A stretch of 64,000 nucleotides of DNA from a virus. The stretch spans positions 124,001 through 188,000 of the IMG/VR virus record IMGVR_UViG_3300009408_000001, one strand, 5' to 3'. Position 1 is the stretch's first letter; every line of letters starts with the position of its first letter. Below are positions 1,290 through 63,274 of this stretch, piece by piece. The translations under genes were made by a program, and so were the position numbers. The notes below the pieces were generated by a model. The model had not been told where the DNA came from. It was given only the letters and a program-made list of their open reading frames with translations, and did no database searches.

Positions 1290-1775
1290 GTGAATACCTT
1301 ACAAATGCTGCAAGTCGACACCATTCTTTTTTCTACTCTTCTCGCCAACGCCCTACCTGTTGGGCACAAAGATAGGCAAGAAGCATTCTTAACCGCCCGT
1401 GCAGTAGAGAGGTCTCTAAAGGGTTCATCTCCACCGGAGTTGATTGATGTACGTGTCCAAAACATCTCCACCCGCAGTAAACTGGACTCCACATTGGATA
1501 ACCTAGACACATTGCAATCGACCTTACCTAGGGTAGATAGGTTACGCGAATTAGTAACTCGGTTAAAGGGAGCTACTGTTACCCTGTCCCTAAAGGAAGA
1601 AACCGTAGTAAAACATGCGGTTGCCCTCATTGGGTCACATTCCATGGTACCTCGTACTTTGTTACAGCGAGGTTTGGTTAAGACCGAGGAAGCGTGGCGT
1701 CGGGTTTCCGAGAAGCAACGAGAGAAAGATACAGAAGTAACCCACCGTAACCACCTACCTACCTGGGCAAAGTAA
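1290..1775 (+). CDS. hypothetical early protein, GTG start
   Basis: 161 residues. GTG at 1290 is chosen because GGAG lies at the proper spacing (GGAGAACACGTG) and no upstream start in frame has a better site. Mostly helical composition with many charged residues; the last 25 residues are strongly basic and acidic mixed (EKQREKD). It shares its transcript with the gene at 599, separated by the hairpin at 1254-1275. An antisense frame spans the same region but shows no ribosome site. No recognised domain. Confidence 0.75.
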   Translation: MNTLQMLQVDTILFSTLLANALPVGHKDRQEAFLTARAVERSLKGSSPPELIDVRVQNISTRSKLDSTLDNLDTLQSTLPRVDRLRELVTRLKGATVTLSLKEETVVKHAVALIGSHSMVPRTLLQRGLVKTEEAWRRVSEKQREKDTEVTHRNHLPTWAK

Positions 1776-1950
1776 CCCATTGTATGTATAAGCTATTCTC
1801 CTGAGTAGTCCATTTGTGGTGGATGGAAACAGGCCTCAGGCGAGCACATGTATATGTGACATTCACACCCTTCCGTGTATCGGAAACGTTGTGCGACATG
1901 TACCGCTGTGTCCATATGTCTGAGAACCTGTTGGTAAATGGTGGTACTTG
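1776..1950 (+). ncRNA. candidate structured noncoding RNA
   Basis: 175 bp without a credible gene, packed with inverted repeats: CCTGAG/CTCAGG (1800-1805/1835-1840) enclosing TCCAT/ATGGA (1809-1813/1823-1827); CACAT/ATGTG (1845-1849/1854-1858); TTCCG/CGGAA (1871-1875/1881-1885); GACAT/ATGTC (1895-1899/1916-1920). A strong terminator follows at 1951. This may be a long structured 3' UTR or an independent small RNA; no family is recognised. Confidence 0.4.
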
Positions 1951-1981
1951 AGAGGCCCTTCACGGGGCCTCTTTCTTTTTT
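1951..1981 (+). terminator. intrinsic terminator, GAGGCCC type
   Basis: AGAGGCCC-TTCAC-GGGGCCTCT stem then TTTCTTTTTTT. It ends the plus-strand unit just before the convergent minus-strand gene that ends at 1987. Confidence 0.9.
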
Positions 1982-1986
1982 TGCCG

Positions 1987-2715
1987 TTAACGCGGTACAA
2001 ACATACCGGTGTACGTCTGGGCTTGTTTCTTATCTGCAAACACGTTTATTTTTTTCCATCGTTTCATCTCCGTCTCTTCGTACAGTTCAAATGAGTCAGC
2101 GTACTCGTCTACAATACTTCGTATGTGTTCACTCATGTTACCGTGGCTGAAGGCACTGAACCCGGTTGACAACGATAACTCCTTATGAACATAACCCTTC
2201 GCTGCCAACACACACAGTTTACCAAACTGCATCTGACTGGATACTGGTAGGTTGTGTAAGTTGGCATCGTGTGATAAGATGTAGCGTAATGCCACATGGG
2301 GGGATAACATTGTTTGAGGGGTAGCAATGGTGTTCGGCCCTACCAGGTAAACCTTTTCCGTACCCGGATGATTTGCATTCCCCATGGTACCTTCTGGGTG
2401 GATCGGTCCACGGTTAATAATAGCCAGTGGCTGTAAGATACTCCTCCCGTTTAACAGATCACTGGGTATAACCCACTGTGTCCCAGTTGGGTAGGTCTGG
2501 CGCGGGATGTTGGTTAAGTCCATTACCAATCGTTCACCAGTTACCATGAGTACATCTTTGAGTACAATGCCTCGTATGATCTCACTTACGATGCGGTCAT
2601 CGAGAGAGGCGATTTCGTATTGTCCTACGTTACGCCCGAATAAAGTCCGTTGAAGGATCTCTGTGTTTATCTCCCGGTAGATCCGGTCCAGACCATACTG
2701 AATGTGCGCCGACAT
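1987..2715 (-). CDS. hypothetical protein
   Basis: 242 residues; ATG at 2715 preceded on the minus strand by AAGGAGACAAATT, a strong ribosome site. It stands alone on the minus strand between plus-strand early units and converges on the terminator at 1951. The N-terminal half (to about residue 120) has mixed alpha/beta character; the middle contains a PNTIATPQTMLSPHVALRYIL stretch and the C-terminus is basic and aromatic (KRWKKINVF). Isolated minus genes in this genome include possible structural genes, but I do not recognise a family. Confidence 0.75.
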   Translation of the reverse strand: MSAHIQYGLDRIYREINTEILQRTLFGRNVGQYEIASLDDRIVSEIIRGIVLKDVLMVTGERLVMDLTNIPRQTYPTGTQWVIPSDLLNGRSILQPLAIINRGPIHPEGTMGNANHPGTEKVYLVGPNTIATPQTMLSPHVALRYILSHDANLHNLPVSSQMQFGKLCVLAAKGYVHKELSLSTGFSAFSHGNMSEHIRSIVDEYADSFELYEETEMKRWKKINVFADKKQAQTYTGMFVPR

Positions 2716-2753
2716 AATTTGTCTCCTTATAAGTACATACGATCCACTACAAG

Positions 2754-2799
2754 CACATTACCTTTTAGACCGGGGTTAAATAAAGTAGAGCCATCCACC
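2754..2799 (+). promoter_or_regulatory. early promoter-like CACATTAC with possible 5' stem
   Basis: CACATTAC at 2754-2761 matches the motif of the other early units. Exactly seven nucleotides later, ACCGG (2769-2773) could pair, with one bulged G, with CCGGGT around 2797-2802 just before the ribosome site. The pairing is weaker than in the other modules. Confidence 0.45.
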
Positions 2800-2816
2800 G
2801 GGTAAAAGGGATAAAT

Positions 2817-3434
2817 ATGTCTAACCAAACAATGCCGATCACGTATGTAGAAACATACGTACCCACCATAGGGTGGAAACAACTGGAACATTCGCTTAAT
2901 CTGGAACAAACCAGAAGCCTTTCATATTGGCTAACGGGTTATGGTAAGTGTAGCTACATGTACGGTGACCCAGACGGTAACGATCTAGTTGCATTACAGT
3001 TAGATAGGGGGCTCCCTTCTGGAAACCCATATTCGATAGACAGGTATGGTGTCTGTGTATTATCGCCTCCTGCCGGAAAGGAACACCTGGGTGACTATGG
3101 GTTCGGTTGGTTAACCTCAACGGAAGTAATCGAAGCACATGTTACACTACCCATGTATACTGGGAGAGGCATTATTTCCATAGCGGACTACAACGACATG
3201 CAAGAAGGAGACGCGCCCCCAGGCATCCCCGATATTTACCTAGCCGGGGACATGGTCGTGGTGTCTACCCCGGGTACAATAACCGAGTTAACGACGCACG
3301 TTAACGTCGAATGGAAAATCGACGTAAGTGCAGAGTTCAAACCCTTCGTAGACAGCCTAAAGAAACTGCATTACGAGGTGGGAGAAGTCCGACTTATCTT
3401 CGGATACGTGAAAACCAGGTCCAACCATTATTAA
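2817..3434 (+). CDS. hypothetical early protein
   Basis: 205 residues from ATG 2817 (upstream AAAAGGGATAAAT gives a modest SD). Aromatic-rich sequence with several Gly turns and a hydrophobic but not membrane-spanning profile. The segment around residues 125-165 includes an acidic loop (DYNDMQEGDAPPG). The gene runs up to the PhuZ-like gene; the promoter of the latter begins immediately after its stop. No family is recognised. Confidence 0.75.
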   Translation: MSNQTMPITYVETYVPTIGWKQLEHSLNLEQTRSLSYWLTGYGKCSYMYGDPDGNDLVALQLDRGLPSGNPYSIDRYGVCVLSPPAGKEHLGDYGFGWLTSTEVIEAHVTLPMYTGRGIISIADYNDMQEGDAPPGIPDIYLAGDMVVVSTPGTITELTTHVNVEWKIDVSAEFKPFVDSLKKLHYEVGEVRLIFGYVKTRSNHY

Positions 3435-3438
3435 GAAC

Positions 3439-3471
3439 TACATTACCAACATGATAACACGTCCGTGTTAT
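3439..3471 (+). promoter_or_regulatory. early promoter plus 5' hairpin for the tubulin-like gene
   Basis: TACATTAC (3439-3446), seven nucleotides, then ATAACAC-GTCC-GTGTTAT (3454-3471). The SD TTTGGAG follows and the ATG is at 3498. Same module as at 544 and 61626. Confidence 0.75.
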
Positions 3472-3497
3472 TCTTTCCATTTGGAGCTACATCTAAC

Positions 3498-4535
3498 ATG
3501 AGCAAAAACACCACAGAAAAACGAACCGTTGTAACCGTATATGGTTGTGGCGGTACTGGCGTGAACCATATCTTGCATTCCACTGGCACCCCGTTGGCTG
3601 AGCAGGAAAGTGGGCTTTACCCCATGATGAAATATGTCGGGATTGATTCGTCGGCATCTAACTGTCGCAACTACATGGATGCAGCAGACGCCGCTGGTAT
3701 TCCAATTCACCTGTTAGCAGGTGAGATGGGGTTCGGTATGAATCGCCCTCAGGCTGTAAAGAAGTGCAGTCCCCACATCATTCCAATCTTACGGGATTAC
3801 CCACCTACCGATTTCAACATCCTGATTGGGTCTGCTGGTGGAGGAACAGGTTCAGTATTAGTCCCACTGATTGCTAACCAGTTACTGGAACGGAATATTC
3901 CATTCATCATCATGTTGGTTGGTTCCCGGTGTACATCAAGGGAAGCACAGAACACACTAGATACCCTCACCGGTATCCGCAATGCAGCTCGGAAACACCA
4001 GACACCCATCGAGTTGTGCTATTTCGAAAATGGCAAGAACGACGAGAAGGGCCAAGACTGGGTTGGTACCATCCCAGAGGTAGACCGTCGGATGGATGCT
4101 ACCTTCCGAAGTAATCTTCTGTTACTCGCCGGTACCTGCGAGCGCTTGGATAACACAGATGTCCGGAACTTCCTGGACTACACATCCGTGGTTTCTTCTG
4201 ACATCGCCCCTCAGTTGGTTCGGTTGATTCCGTTCGTGATGGACGGTGAAAATGCACCTTGGAGCGAGTATGCCCGTAAGACGATTACCTCGGTAAACCT
4301 GATGCGTTCTCCCGGTGACGATGAAGCACCTGTGGATGCATTATATGGGACCGTGGGTTTGTACGGGGAAGACACGCATCCTTCCTCAATTCCGAACTAC
4401 GCCTTCATCACTACGACGGAAGGTGTCTCTACTATCTTCTCCGAACTGAAAGCAAAGGTGGAGATGTTCAAGGAGATCGAAGAAGAACTCACCACCACTG
4501 ACGTAGACGAAGACTGGGGTGAATCACTCATCTAA
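3498..4535 (+). CDS. phuZ: tubulin/FtsZ-like GTPase, PhuZ-like
   Basis: 345 residues. Seen: an N-terminal nucleotide-binding segment VVTVYGCGGTGVNHI (residues 11-25) reminiscent of the FtsZ GxGGxGxN loop, and GSAGGGTGS at 111-119, the tubulin signature loop. The C-terminus is acidic (EEELTTTDVDEDWGESLI), as in polymerising tubulins. Known: phiKZ-like phages encode PhuZ, which forms dynamic filaments that centre the phage nucleus and carry capsids. Start: ATG 3498 follows SD TTTGGAG; the upstream GTG at 3465 lies inside the leader hairpin and is rejected. Slightly longer than the roughly 315-residue PhuZ I recall from 201phi2-1. Tubulin-superfamily call is firm; the PhuZ name rests on context. 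Confidence 0.75.
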   Translation: MSKNTTEKRTVVTVYGCGGTGVNHILHSTGTPLAEQESGLYPMMKYVGIDSSASNCRNYMDAADAAGIPIHLLAGEMGFGMNRPQAVKKCSPHIIPILRDYPPTDFNILIGSAGGGTGSVLVPLIANQLLERNIPFIIMLVGSRCTSREAQNTLDTLTGIRNAARKHQTPIELCYFENGKNDEKGQDWVGTIPEVDRRMDATFRSNLLLLAGTCERLDNTDVRNFLDYTSVVSSDIAPQLVRLIPFVMDGENAPWSEYARKTITSVNLMRSPGDDEAPVDALYGTVGLYGEDTHPSSIPNYAFITTTEGVSTIFSELKAKVEMFKEIEEELTTTDVDEDWGESLI

Positions 4536-11389: not shown

Positions 11390-13333
11390 ATGGCACTTAT
11401 AAGAGATGATCAACAACCAGCAGCAGCAGTGGATAGAACCCATTCCGCTGTACCACCTACCCCAGAACAACCTGGTGTTAACCAGACAGCGGCACAACCT
11501 ACCTTGGACCCAAACGGAGACTTCGATGAAGGATTCGGGGACTTATTCGATGACGGCCTATATGGGGACCTCGGTATCGCTGTATCAGGTGTGGGGGGGT
11601 GTGGCGAATCCCTTGCGGAATTCTTGAAAAACATGGAGGACCAGTGCCTCAGTACGTTGAAGGATAGGGCTGTTATCCGCCTCATACAGGATGTAAACCT
11701 GTACATCTCGTTTGTAGTTCTGGCGAATGTGTCTAAGATCAAGGAAGGTTCGGTTCCTTGCTTTGTATTTATGATGGAAGAGACCATTCACGGGATATCA
11801 GCCACAAAGGTGGAAGAGTACCGTACCATCCGGGGTGTGGAACAGATAGTGCGTTACAACACCACCGATCAATTCTTTGACCCGGATGCCCGTAACATCG
11901 TGGCCCGCCACATGGCCCGTGACCTGGGTTGTGAGTTGGGTGCGATCAAGTTCGTGGCCAACGCCACCGTTAAGAAGTCAATGGACCTTCGGTCTCCGGA
12001 GACCGCTAAACATCACTTCACAAATGCACTGTCACAACTAGCGTCCAAATACGTTAGACGCACGGGTAAAGGGATTACCTACGCTAGGCTGACAGATGGT
12101 GTAAGCCAGTTAGTCCAGACTGTGTACACCACCCCCGGTGAAGCATCTGAATTGGATGTAGAAGGCCAACCCTGTGCCGCAGATTTCCGAGTTACCCTGG
12201 CACTGAAGGAAGCGGGTCGGAATAATCGTCCTACCAACAACATTCACAGCCAGGCGAGTGAGGCGGGCCTGACCACCACCACCGTTCATGTGGATCTAAT
12301 GCGCCTCCCACCTTCACAGGTACAGCCCACTGGTGTACCCGGTATGGTGCAACAGCCTACACCGGGCCACGCAGCATGTCTTACCATTACCTCAAACCAT
12401 GAGGCTCTACTTGGCCCACGCAATGCGACAGCAGGGGTTCCAGCCCAGTTACTGGGTATGACCTCACTGGCTGTGTTGTCTTTGAACAACAACTGGGTAG
12501 CAGCCTACCAGAACTTCCCTGGTCAAGTATCTGCTAAGGAAAGCATTGGCATGGTGGCGGTCGAACATGACCCCTACCTACGTCCAGGCAACGATCACTT
12601 TAAACCAGTGAACGTCATGAGCGCTGCACCAGGGGAAACTCCGGGTGACGCAATGACTCCAGAAGCAGTGGCTGCAATGTGGGTTCATCCTGCATCTATC
12701 CATGCAATCGATTGCCTGCGTGCAGGCGTCAATAGCTGGGCAATGGATATCTTCCAACGTGCTGCTACCGACCCTGCTGCACAACAGAGAATTCTCTCTG
12801 AATGTGATGCACTTTTCAACGGTAAGTTCTTGCCTATCTGGAACCGGGTTACCAATAATTCAGGTGCATCTCCCGTTCTTCCACAGACCAGTTACATCTT
12901 AGCTGGTACTTACCGTGAAGAGAACCGCCTCTTGGATATCCGCTCTCTGGACTACACCAAGGTCGTGGCTATGGGTCTACAGGATCCTCAGTTCATTGCC
13001 GAAGTAACCAGTGGTAACATGATGGGTGCAGATGCCTCCCGTGTCCAGAAACGCATGGAACGTTTGCGTCCACTGATCCCATCTATTGAGATCACAGGTG
13101 CTTACACCCGTTGCTACTTCCACCCTGCACTCATTGGTGCTATGGCTGAAGCAATGGTTGCTGCTGAAATGGTGGTAATCACCAACGCCAACTTCAACCG
13201 AATTGATACAGGTCGTGCTTACATCGATCCTAACAATCTGGGTGTTGTTTCACAGGGTGGGGCATTCCAAAATAACCAGGGTGGTCAGTCTAACTATGCT
13301 GCTCCAAACAGTTGGATGGGTCACGGGTACTAG
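11390..13333 (+). CDS. chmA: candidate phage-nucleus shell protein (chimallin, ChmA)
   Basis: 647 residues. What is seen: a disordered, Pro/Gln/Asp-rich N-terminus (about 1-60), a long folded middle without membrane segments, and an Asn/Gln/Gly-rich C-terminal tail (QNNQGGQSNY). Recalled: ChmA of phiKZ-like phages is about 630-690 residues, has flexible N- and C-terminal segments that link protomers, and in phiKZ is gp54, directly before the beta' N-terminal gene gp55. Here the next gene is exactly such a beta' fragment, and a PhuZ-like gene lies 7 kb upstream. The elaborate leader fits strong early expression. Direct sequence identity cannot be confirmed here; a capsid-related protein is the alternative. 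Confidence 0.6.
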   Translation: MALIRDDQQPAAAVDRTHSAVPPTPEQPGVNQTAAQPTLDPNGDFDEGFGDLFDDGLYGDLGIAVSGVGGCGESLAEFLKNMEDQCLSTLKDRAVIRLIQDVNLYISFVVLANVSKIKEGSVPCFVFMMEETIHGISATKVEEYRTIRGVEQIVRYNTTDQFFDPDARNIVARHMARDLGCELGAIKFVANATVKKSMDLRSPETAKHHFTNALSQLASKYVRRTGKGITYARLTDGVSQLVQTVYTTPGEASELDVEGQPCAADFRVTLALKEAGRNNRPTNNIHSQASEAGLTTTTVHVDLMRLPPSQVQPTGVPGMVQQPTPGHAACLTITSNHEALLGPRNATAGVPAQLLGMTSLAVLSLNNNWVAAYQNFPGQVSAKESIGMVAVEHDPYLRPGNDHFKPVNVMSAAPGETPGDAMTPEAVAAMWVHPASIHAIDCLRAGVNSWAMDIFQRAATDPAAQQRILSECDALFNGKFLPIWNRVTNNSGASPVLPQTSYILAGTYREENRLLDIRSLDYTKVVAMGLQDPQFIAEVTSGNMMGADASRVQKRMERLRPLIPSIEITGAYTRCYFHPALIGAMAEAMVAAEMVVITNANFNRIDTGRAYIDPNNLGVVSQGGAFQNNQGGQSNYAAPNSWMGHGY

Positions 13334-60349: not shown

Positions 60350-60363
60350 CACATCCGTGTTAT
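60331..60363 (+). promoter_or_regulatory. early promoter plus 5' hairpin, inside an upstream CDS
   Basis: CCTATTAC (60331-60338) then ATAACAC-ATCC-GTGTTAT (60346-60363). The box lies in the last codons of the gene ending at 60349, so coding and promoter function share bases. Confidence 0.65.
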
Positions 60364-60389
60364 TTAACCAATTTGGAGATACAAAGCCT

Positions 60390-60890
60390 ATGAATACCGA
60401 ACAATTGATTGAAGCGGTTGTTAGTTCCGCTCAGGACTTGGCGAACGCACTGGACGCTCAGGGAAATAACGCGACGCGTATTTCCCACGTACTTGCTATT
60501 CAAGACGGGGCTAGGGCCCTCCCCGTATTCCTTGTGGAAAATGGCGATGCATACTTATCCAAAATGCATCATGTTGTCGCGATGGCCATGGCCACTCTCG
60601 CGGATGAGGTCGGGTTACAGGCAACCGGTCGCTTCCTGATGGGTGCCATTATGGAATGGGAAGTCAATTCTCCGTCATTCGAGGAACATTTCCACTTAAT
60701 GAATTCTGCAGATGGGAGAACAGCTCCACGTGTCTCCATTGCAATACGCACAATCATGCACAAATATGAAGGTGCAGTGGACTTTCTAAACGTCCAACTC
60801 GAGGCTAACAAAGCGATCACGGCTGCTATTGAAGCGGTGGACCTCTCCAATATGGAAGAGATTACATTAGCGGCGAACCGCAAACACTGA
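60390..60890 (+). CDS. early protein, tandem paralogue 1
   Basis: 166 residues from ATG 60390; SD TTTGGAG. Helical, with conserved Met/His-rich core (KMHHVVAMAMATLADEVG) and the C-terminal EAIDLSN-type acidic segment. It is clearly a duplicate of the gene at 61030: the last 100 residues and the entire following terminator and promoter are nearly identical. Function unknown; the phage keeps two copies. Confidence 0.75.
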   Translation: MNTEQLIEAVVSSAQDLANALDAQGNNATRISHVLAIQDGARALPVFLVENGDAYLSKMHHVVAMAMATLADEVGLQATGRFLMGAIMEWEVNSPSFEEHFHLMNSADGRTAPRVSIAIRTIMHKYEGAVDFLNVQLEANKAITAAIEAVDLSNMEEITLAANRKH

Positions 60891-60970: not shown

Positions 60971-61004
60971 CACATTACCTTACTGATAACACGTCCGTGT
61001 TATC
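60971..61004 (+). promoter_or_regulatory. early promoter plus 5' hairpin
   Basis: CACATTAC (60971-60978) then GATAACAC-GTCC-GTGTTATC (60985-61004), 8-bp perfect stem, before paralogue 2. Confidence 0.75.
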
Positions 61005-61029
61005 TAACCCATTTGGAGATACAACGATT

Positions 61030-61545
61030 ATGAACAAAATTACCAAACAATTGGTTGAAACTATTGTTAATTCCGCACAGGACTTGGAAAACGCACTGAA
61101 CGCGCAGAAAGAGAACTCGACGTGTATGGCTCACGCACGTGCTATTTGTGACGTGGTTAACGCACTCCCCGTATTCCTTGTGGAATATGGCGATACATAC
61201 TTATCGAAAATGCATCATGTTGTCGCGATGTCCATGTCCACTCTCGTGGAAGAGGTCGGACCACAGGCAACCGGTCGATTCCTGATGGGTGCCATAGCGG
61301 AATGGGAAGTCAATTCTCTGACATCCGAGGAACATTTCCACTTAGTAAATTCTGCAGATGGGAGAGCAGCTCCACATGTCTCCATTGCAATACGCACAGT
61401 CATGCACAAATATGAAGGTGCAGTGGACTTTCTAAACGTCCAACTCGAGGCTAACAAAGCGATCACGGCTGCTATTGAAGCGGTGGACCTTTCCAATGCG
61501 GAAGAGGACAAAGAGGTTACATTAGCGGCGAACCGCAAACACTGA
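61030..61545 (+). CDS. early protein, tandem paralogue 2
   Basis: 171 residues from ATG 61030 (SD TTTGGAG). Compared with the gene at 60390 it has a five-residue longer N-terminus and a DKE insertion near the C-terminus; the middle HHVVAM segment and most of the sequence are shared. Differences cluster in the N-terminal third, so that part may have a changed target. Own promoter and terminator. Function unknown. Confidence 0.75.
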   Translation: MNKITKQLVETIVNSAQDLENALNAQKENSTCMAHARAICDVVNALPVFLVEYGDTYLSKMHHVVAMSMSTLVEEVGPQATGRFLMGAIAEWEVNSLTSEEHFHLVNSADGRAAPHVSIAIRTVMHKYEGAVDFLNVQLEANKAITAAIEAVDLSNAEEDKEVTLAANRKH

Positions 61546-61566
61546 CGTGAAACTTAACCACGTGTA

Positions 61567-61601
61567 ATAAAGAGACCCTTAACGGGGCCTCTTTATTTTT
61601 T
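61567..61601 (+). terminator. intrinsic terminator, GAGACCC/GGGGCCTC type
   Basis: AATAAAGAGACCC-TTAAC-GGGGCCTCTTTATT then TTTT; one G-A/C-C mismatch compared with the copy at 60911. Confidence 0.85.
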
Positions 61602-61625: not shown

Positions 61626-61658
61626 CACATTACCTTACTGATAACACGTCCGTGTTAT
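61626..61658 (+). promoter_or_regulatory. early promoter plus 5' hairpin for the XRE/peptidase operon
   Basis: CACATTAC (61626-61633) and ATAACAC-GTCC-GTGTTAT (61641-61658), followed by SD TTTTTGGAG and ATG 61681. Confidence 0.75.
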
Positions 61659-61680: not shown

Positions 61681-62073
61681 ATGGTAAATACAGATACGAT
61701 TATACCGAGGCAACATACGCTCGGTGAGTTAATAAAGGTGCACCGTGCTCGCGGTTCACTCTCTCAGGCTTCCCTGTCAGATATAGCGGGTTTATCCCGG
61801 ACGCATCTCTCTCGAGTAGAAGTGGGGTCGGCTAAGGCCAATCCCCTGTTTATATCTCGGCTGTCTAAGTGCTTGTCCCTGACACCGGGTGAGTCCTCTG
61901 ATCTAAGACGTGCTGCTACACGGGCAAATCGATACCTAGATAAGACAGACGTTACACGGGATGCCTTATTTAACCAGGTTGGTAAAACAATTGACATCAT
62001 GTCAGAAGGTGATGCAAATGCAATCTCCCGGATTGTACTTCATTACGCTCGTGAACTAGGAGAAGTAAAATGA
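61681..62073 (+). CDS. XRE-family helix-turn-helix regulator
   Basis: 130 residues; ATG 61681. Residues 12-72 fit the Cro/CI-type HTH: LGELIKVHRARGSLSQASLSDIAGLSRTHLSRVEVGSAKANPLFISRLSKCL, with the Q-x(3)-LAxxxGxSxxxxSxxE-like core. A C-terminal extension of about 55 residues probably dimerises. The stop overlaps the ATG of the HslV-like gene (ATGA). Probably controls its own operon or a host/phage early promoter; target unknown. Confidence 0.75.
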   Translation: MVNTDTIIPRQHTLGELIKVHRARGSLSQASLSDIAGLSRTHLSRVEVGSAKANPLFISRLSKCLSLTPGESSDLRRAATRANRYLDKTDVTRDALFNQVGKTIDIMSEGDANAISRIVLHYARELGEVK

Positions 62074-62588
62074 CAACCTTACATGCTTACATTGACGGGA
62101 ACACCGGCTATGTACTAGCCGATTCGATTGGTACCACTGATAACCCCACGGTAGGAAGAATTCCGGCTAATAAAATGTACTCCACCCCATATGCTGTCTT
62201 TGCTTTCGCTGGGGATGCTAAAGAAGCTAAACGTAAGGCAGAGTACATCATTAACCAAGGACCCATCCCAATGGACAAGTGGCTGGAGCAGATATCCGAT
62301 CCGGACAACAAGGAGCCTAAGTACGCCAGCGTAGGTATATACCGTACAGCGGAGGGAAAGTTATATTACTTCCTCTCGGAGGGGGATGTCAGGAAGTTCC
62401 ACACTATAGATAGTGGAAACTCATGGGGTGTATGTGCGGGGTCGGGTGCTGGAGCAATGTATACGTTACTACATCTTACTACCGACCGCAGCATTGAAAA
62501 ATCCCTAAAACTATTCAAGACGGTTGTGGCACTGGACAAGTTCTCGGGTGGGGAGTGTGTTTGGAAATCAATTGAGGGTAAAACATGA
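62070..62588 (+). CDS. HslV/proteasome beta-like Ntn peptidase
   Basis: 172 residues; ATGA overlap with the XRE gene. After Met removal the chain begins TTLHAYIDGNTGYVLAD, matching HslV TTIVxVRxxGxVVIxxD. Thr1 is the nucleophile; D17 falls in place, K34 follows with a one-residue shift (NKMYS, HslV K33), and the GSG at 123-125 puts S124 at the HslV position. FAFAGDAKEA matches HslV AGFAGxTADA. Known: HslV forms two hexameric rings and needs the HslU ATPase. No HslU-like gene is in the window, so it may use a host unfoldase, act alone, or be a decoy. Family call fairly strong. Confidence 0.75.
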   Translation: MTTLHAYIDGNTGYVLADSIGTTDNPTVGRIPANKMYSTPYAVFAFAGDAKEAKRKAEYIINQGPIPMDKWLEQISDPDNKEPKYASVGIYRTAEGKLYYFLSEGDVRKFHTIDSGNSWGVCAGSGAGAMYTLLHLTTDRSIEKSLKLFKTVVALDKFSGGECVWKSIEGKT

Positions 62589-63274
62589 AACATACACTGA
62601 TCTGTGATAAAACCGTCGGGATGGTACAGGTAGCTCACTTCCCACGTCACCTGCATATCTCGCCACTGCGCAGTTCTGAACCTGGGTACTTTACCAAAAA
62701 CGGTTGGACTGTAGTGGGGGACATCTCCGCAATGTTTAAATCCAGGTTATTCGAGTACATTGCGGAACGGTACAAAACTAAAGAAGGGCGGTCGGATCTG
62801 CTTACGTCTGGCCTTAAGCCAAGTATGATGCAGCACCATAAGGTTTACCCAGATAGACGGGATACATGTATCGTTATTCCTCCGGATGAAAATGCACGAC
62901 ACATGTGTACCATGTTTGGTCCATGGTATGGGACACTGAACCCGGGCCTCACGATAAGCAACACCGGGGATCGAGAAGATGGATTTGAAGCATGTCTAGC
63001 GTGGGAGTGTCGGGTCTTGGAAGCAATCGAGTCCGGTAACGAGTCGTATCTACCGACTATCCTGGAAGTAGCCGCGTTGCAGTCACACCACTACCTCCCA
63101 CATCCAAATGGAATGGAGCTGGTTACGATCACTCCAGCCGGGGTGACTACTAAACCATATTCTTCCCTGGAACTGGCAGAAATCTACAAGGGGTTCCATA
63201 AGAATGTGGACTTATACATGGCGTCGTTCACGAAAAAGAAACCAGTTAGAAAGAAACGAACGCCAAAGAAGTAA
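62585..63274 (+). CDS. hypothetical partner of the HslV-like peptidase
   Basis: 229 residues; ATGA overlap with the HslV-like gene, so strictly coupled. The segment WTVVGDISAMFKSRLFEYI resembles the FAFAGDAKEAKRKAEYI segment of its neighbour, and an EDGFEACLAWECRVLEAI helix follows in a comparable place, so it might be a degenerate second Ntn subunit without an N-terminal Thr. The C-terminus is very basic (KKKPVRKKRTPKK). No independent family recognised. Confidence 0.6.
   Translation: MKHTLICDKTVGMVQVAHFPRHLHISPLRSSEPGYFTKNGWTVVGDISAMFKSRLFEYIAERYKTKEGRSDLLTSGLKPSMMQHHKVYPDRRDTCIVIPPDENARHMCTMFGPWYGTLNPGLTISNTGDREDGFEACLAWECRVLEAIESGNESYLPTILEVAALQSHHYLPHPNGMELVTITPAGVTTKPYSSLELAEIYKGFHKNVDLYMASFTKKKPVRKKRTPKK

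Follow-up and report, generated by a model that had tools for sequence, protein, structure and literature searches.

The analyzed DNA (the window, 64,000 nucleotides) covers positions 124001-188000 of a 197,530-base virus record from IMG/VR. The gene of interest (62070-62588, + strand) encodes a protein of 172 aa with the N-terminus MTT, annotated here as a putative proteasome-like (HslV-fold) Ntn hydrolase. It has an ATG start with AGGAG close upstream, and it is a real gene. The preceding gene in the operon (61681-62073, + strand) encodes an XRE/HTH_3 regulator (Pfam HTH_3, E=4.7e-6), which agrees with the XRE regulator that the preliminary description had placed in front. The third gene (62585-63274, + strand), directly after the 172-aa gene, encodes an orphan protein of 229 aa, for which searches of Pfam and PHROG and tblastn against phages gave no match. 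The XRE stop codon and the start codon of the 172-aa gene overlap (ATGA), and an overlap of the same kind (ATGA) joins the TGA of the 172-aa gene to the start codon that follows; with these overlaps on both sides, translation of the three genes is probably coupled. A terminator-like inverted repeat with a T-rich tail lies ahead of the operon (61566-61597, + strand). Immediately 5' of the operon are also two tandemly duplicated genes (60357-60890 and 60997-61545; 84% identical over 300 nt), whose promoter and terminator cassettes are repeated too; their PHROG matches are weak or absent.

The operon starts at a repeated motif with the consensus aACCAtATTACCTTAcTGATAACAC.tCCGTGTTAT. The core of the local copy (ATTACCTTACTGATAACAC; 61629-61647, + strand) is a presumed early promoter. 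The 197.5-kb record contains 18 copies of the motif, on the + strand only and typically just 5' of a ribosome site and ATG; the window has 8 matches, versus 0.15 in shuffled windows. The core is followed by a conserved palindrome GATAACACGTCCGTGTTAT (GATAACAC..CCGTGTTAT; 61640-61658, + strand), which is a probable 5' UTR hairpin. The palindrome GATAACAC..CCGTGTTAT recurs at about 15 further positions of the record. Where jumbo phages encode RNA polymerases of their own, motifs of this type precede presumed early operons, and wherever transcripts were profiled, these motifs turned out to be early promoters (PMC7598289). The repeated motif and this jumbo-phage precedent indicate that the motif is likely an early promoter, and that the 172-aa gene is likely expressed early. 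The very early-type promoter proposed in the preliminary description thus gains an 18-copy, + strand motif at the operon start, whereas its early timing is an argument by analogy.

The record also encodes chimallin, the protein of the nuclear shell (window positions 11390-13333), together with subunits of a multisubunit RNA polymerase and DNA polymerases of the jumbo-phage type. By this gene content, the source phage is nucleus-forming and Chimalliviridae-like. Named phages are only distantly related to it; one of the RNA polymerase subunits is 34% identical to that of the Vibrio phage pir03.

Several profile comparisons assign the 172-aa protein to the proteasome-like proteins. The family PHROG 1040 ('peptidase HslV family') matched residues 1-169 (E=6e-5), and in a PHROG 1040 search of the whole 197.5-kb record the 172-aa gene was the sole match (E=8.4e-8). 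A leave-one-out profile of 55 phage relatives scored the protein at 16.4 bits (p=3.6e-7); this score was reached by none of 10,000 shuffled sequences, half of which retained the MTT. When the protein and its closest family were compared by hhalign with 19 phage proteasome homologues (PPH), the probability was 96% (E=4.2e-9, residues 1-170). In the PDB, the family profile also matched chains of proteasome beta and of HslV (E=3e-11). Searches with the 172-aa protein alone against Pfam, NCBIfam, PDB and IMG/VR revealed nothing relevant, which suggests that the protein is very divergent. A weak match to Cupin_5 (E=0.02) was dismissed as chance. At the level of sequence profiles, the 172-aa protein is homologous to the proteasome-like family.

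The active-site residues are numbered from Thr1, the second residue of the ORF, and were compared in an alignment of 56 sequences. The predicted N-terminal nucleophile after Met removal, Thr1 (codon 62073-62075), is Thr in 56/56 sequences; Asp17 (62121-62123) and the oxyanion-hole glycine Gly47 within FAGD (62211-62213) are also invariant in all 56. Lys34 (62172-62174) aligns with the catalytic Lys33, one residue off the canonical spacing, and is Lys in 55 of the 56. The remaining positions are Ser124 in the GSG element (62439-62447, as in HslV; all these codons are on the + strand), and Asp155 and Ser158 in DKFSGG. Ser124, Asp155 and Ser158 presumably correspond to Ser129, Asp166 and Ser169 of the proteasome (Ser124 in HslV). 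All seven predicted catalytic positions are conserved. The residues named in the preliminary description (MTT, Thr1, Asp17, a near-aligned Lys, GSG/S124 and AGD) are confirmed. By sequence, T1, D17, Lys and G47 represent the catalytic triad and the oxyanion glycine of proteasomes as given in PMC8665760.

The predicted structure was in agreement with this assignment. AlphaFold2 with the 56 sequences gave a model (pLDDT 79, pTM 0.73) with the strand and helix order of a proteasome beta subunit, including the β-sheet core and flanking helices; without relatives, no usable model was obtained (pLDDT 37.6). The failure of the single-sequence prediction means that the fold rests on the alignment, and the model gives no support independent of homology. 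When the model was compared with the PDB by Foldseek, chains of proteasomes or of HslV made up all of the 50 best matches (E down to 2e-8; TM, by query length, about 0.52-0.69), and among the viral matches are phage proteins that bear the name HslV or proteasome subunit. In the model, a helix at residues 50-63 is followed by a short second helix (68-75), and the two-helix insertion found after the first strands in connectase is absent. A proteasome/HslV-like Ntn fold is supported by this alignment-dependent model; the preliminary description's label of an HslV/proteasome-beta-like peptidase holds as a predicted fold with conserved residues, on the results of PHROG 1040, hhalign and Foldseek.

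The PPH were described in 2021 (PMC8665760), and have been annotated in SPN3US- and Machina-type phages; PHROG 1040 is very likely the same family. The novelty implied by the preliminary description was therefore overstated, since PPH are published and annotated in related jumbo phages. The PPH and the 172-aa protein share their occurrence in tailed phages, the catalytic residues and the compact group-I layout, and both lack a propeptide, with no AAA+ partner found for either. However, the PPH have about 140 residues rather than 172, and are said to be without the second helix H2, whereas the model of the 172-aa protein shows a short one. The 172-aa protein also falls outside the main PPH group in the tree, where it is grouped with phrog_24804 (support 99/96) apart from the bulk of the PPH; both branches are long, and the grouping calls for caution. 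Together with the short second helix in the model, it suggests that this divergent proteasome-like phage protein belongs to a branch of its own with phrog_24804, outside the PPH in the narrow sense.

The family phrog_24804, which has no annotated function, includes gp486 of the Salmonella phage Munch and ENKO_466 of the Klebsiella phage fENko-Kae01, and belongs to Rak2-like jumbo phages. It is the nearest family of the 172-aa protein, with 27-30% identity over the length and 37 invariant positions, among them T1, D, K, G47, GSG and FKTV..D. In other features phrog_24804 differs from the 172-aa protein: about ten residues are inserted before the Lys, an H2-like segment is lacking, and TSN or TSS replaces SGG. 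Its genes adjoin a sigma-factor gene and are not annotated as proteasome-like. HslV (ClpQ) shares the modeled fold and T1/D17/G47/S124 with the 172-aa protein; whereas the identity is only 16-21% in structure alignments, and the phage has no HslU match. The 172-aa protein gave no NCBIfam match to the HslV family at E<=1, and it is therefore, by this profile search, not HslV proper. Connectase is archaeal and carries its two-helix insertion between the early strands, unlike this phage protein.

The 172-aa protein is very probably an N-terminal-threonine hydrolase, as judged from its residues. The interpretation that we favor with good confidence is a divergent proteasome-like enzyme of this type from a nucleus-forming jumbo phage, probably expressed early and acting without a phage unfoldase. 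The protein has no propeptide, and MTT is at the very N-terminus; host methionine aminopeptidase would remove the Met and expose Thr1 as both nucleophile and base. Asp17, Lys34, Gly47 and the Ser124/Asp155/Ser158 set would complete the active site. The product probably forms oligomers and probably cleaves peptides or unfolded proteins, with no unfoldase supplied by the phage. The breakdown of host or defence proteins that the preliminary description put forward, in host takeover or anti-defence, is a hypothetical role. The protein would probably be made early from a promoter of the virion-RNA-polymerase type, and be co-expressed with the XRE regulator, whose target may be DNA of the host or of the phage.

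Alternatively, the protein might stand in for HslV by docking on host HslU, and in this way redirect the HslUV protease of the host. Its active-site positions are HslV-like, including Ser124, and profiles of HslU, AAA and AAA_2 found no match in the 197.5-kb record, which may be incomplete; any partner would then be that of the host. The claim in the preliminary description that an HslU ATPase is lacking stands within that scope. Nevertheless, docking on host HslU seems quite unlikely, given the lack of an HslV family match in NCBIfam and a tree in which the protein clusters with those of other phages. For phage homologues of this kind, the survey of 2021 reported that AAA+ partners were not found, which fits the absence of an AAA+ match here (PMC8665760). 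Moreover, phrog_4339, the HslU-like family of RAY gp116, gave strong matches in just 2/31 jumbo-phage records (RAY and pSal-SNUABM-04). RAY gp116 carries the description 'HslUV protease family' and was localized to the phage nucleus (PMC10299810). It was rejected as functional evidence, being a 569-aa AAA+ HslU-like ATPase (1353-3062 of its stretch) in a phage with no proteasome-like match. JSS1_004 was also set aside as a related function, as it only represses host hslUV (PMC12345140). The phage pSal-SNUABM-04 carries an HslU-like ATPase (106144-107877) and a PPH together, though the paper on this phage reports no HslU.

Another Ntn hydrolase activity (a site-specific processing protease, an amidase or a connectase-like ligase) instead of a bulk peptidase is unlikely, although proteasome-like proteins are not all proteases and include the ligase connectase (PMC8665760), and the protein is small with a divergent middle region. 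Its active-site set is that of peptidases, and the model has no connectase-type insertion. The ATGA coupling to the XRE gene might also suggest a catalytically silent proteasome-fold protein with a structural or regulatory role beside the regulator, but this is very unlikely with seven of seven catalytic positions conserved. Chance resemblance of an unrelated orphan protein would explain why the sequence by itself had no relevant match in Pfam, NCBIfam or PDB; it is extremely improbable, because the matches by PHROG 1040, the leave-one-out profile, hhalign and phrog_24804 are each significant, and those by PHROG 1040 (E=6e-5), hhalign and phrog_24804 span most of the protein. The favored reading thus remains that of a divergent proteasome-like N-terminal-threonine hydrolase.

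The distribution of proteasome-like genes was also compared among nucleus-forming phages. Contigs were picked via an RNA polymerase subunit, independently of the 172-aa protein, and then searched for chimallin and PHROG 1040. A PHROG 1040 gene was found in 24/26 chimallin-positive contigs; eight of the 26 had already surfaced in PPH searches, and 16 of the remaining 18 were positive. In all of the PHROG 1040-positive contigs (24/24), a copy lies upstream of chmA at a distance of 8-14 kb and in the same orientation. These contigs are from EL-like nucleus-forming phages, which have 1-3 proteasome-like genes per record, often in tandem. The 172-aa gene does not share this synteny, unlike those of the EL-like phages, and lies 51 kb downstream of chmA. 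Some proteasome-like copies start with MS (Ser1 for Thr1), as seen at two loci (1672-2334 and 1427-2080 of their stretches); in the former of these stretches, the second copy apparently has no Gly47 position either, which hints at pairs of active and inactive subunits. Two unrelated phages each have a TerB-family gene no more than about 1.5 kb away from their PPH (1861-2307 and 3270-3710 of their stretches).

The phage phiKZ has a gene, gp289 (NC_004629, 263329-264060; phrog_25842), which encodes a protein of 243 aa and is listed without function. It matched PHROG 1040 at E=1.3e-5 and keeps Thr1, Asp, Lys, Gly and GSG, and looks like an unrecognized homologue. Like the 172-aa protein, it is divergent, proteasome-like and encoded by a nucleus-forming phage, and its catalytic residues are kept; however, it has a C-terminal extension and is not specifically close to the 172-aa protein in the tree. 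PHIKZ289 was not mentioned in the literature found by our search. A homologue was missing or undetected in the Vibrio phages Yong MS32 and pir03, in the Burkholderia phage FLC8 and in RAY.

The PPH were already known as a family; whereas the phrog_24804 grouping, the chmA-linked position of the PPH and the phiKZ gp289 homologue are new. On balance, the 172-aa protein and phrog_24804 probably represent a second, unnamed phage proteasome lineage, and the proteasome-like peptidases an accessory that is widespread among nucleus-forming phages and conserved in position; phiKZ gp289 and the sets of 1-3 genes upstream of chmA would be part of it. The literature found on these peptidases in nucleus-forming phages assigns no function to them. 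Their recurrence in such phages raises the question of what is degraded in them, and whether a particular unfoldase takes part. With a small protein that has an intact predicted active site and belongs to a probable early operon, and with gp289 as a homologue in phiKZ, this question can be addressed in a phage for which genetics is available.
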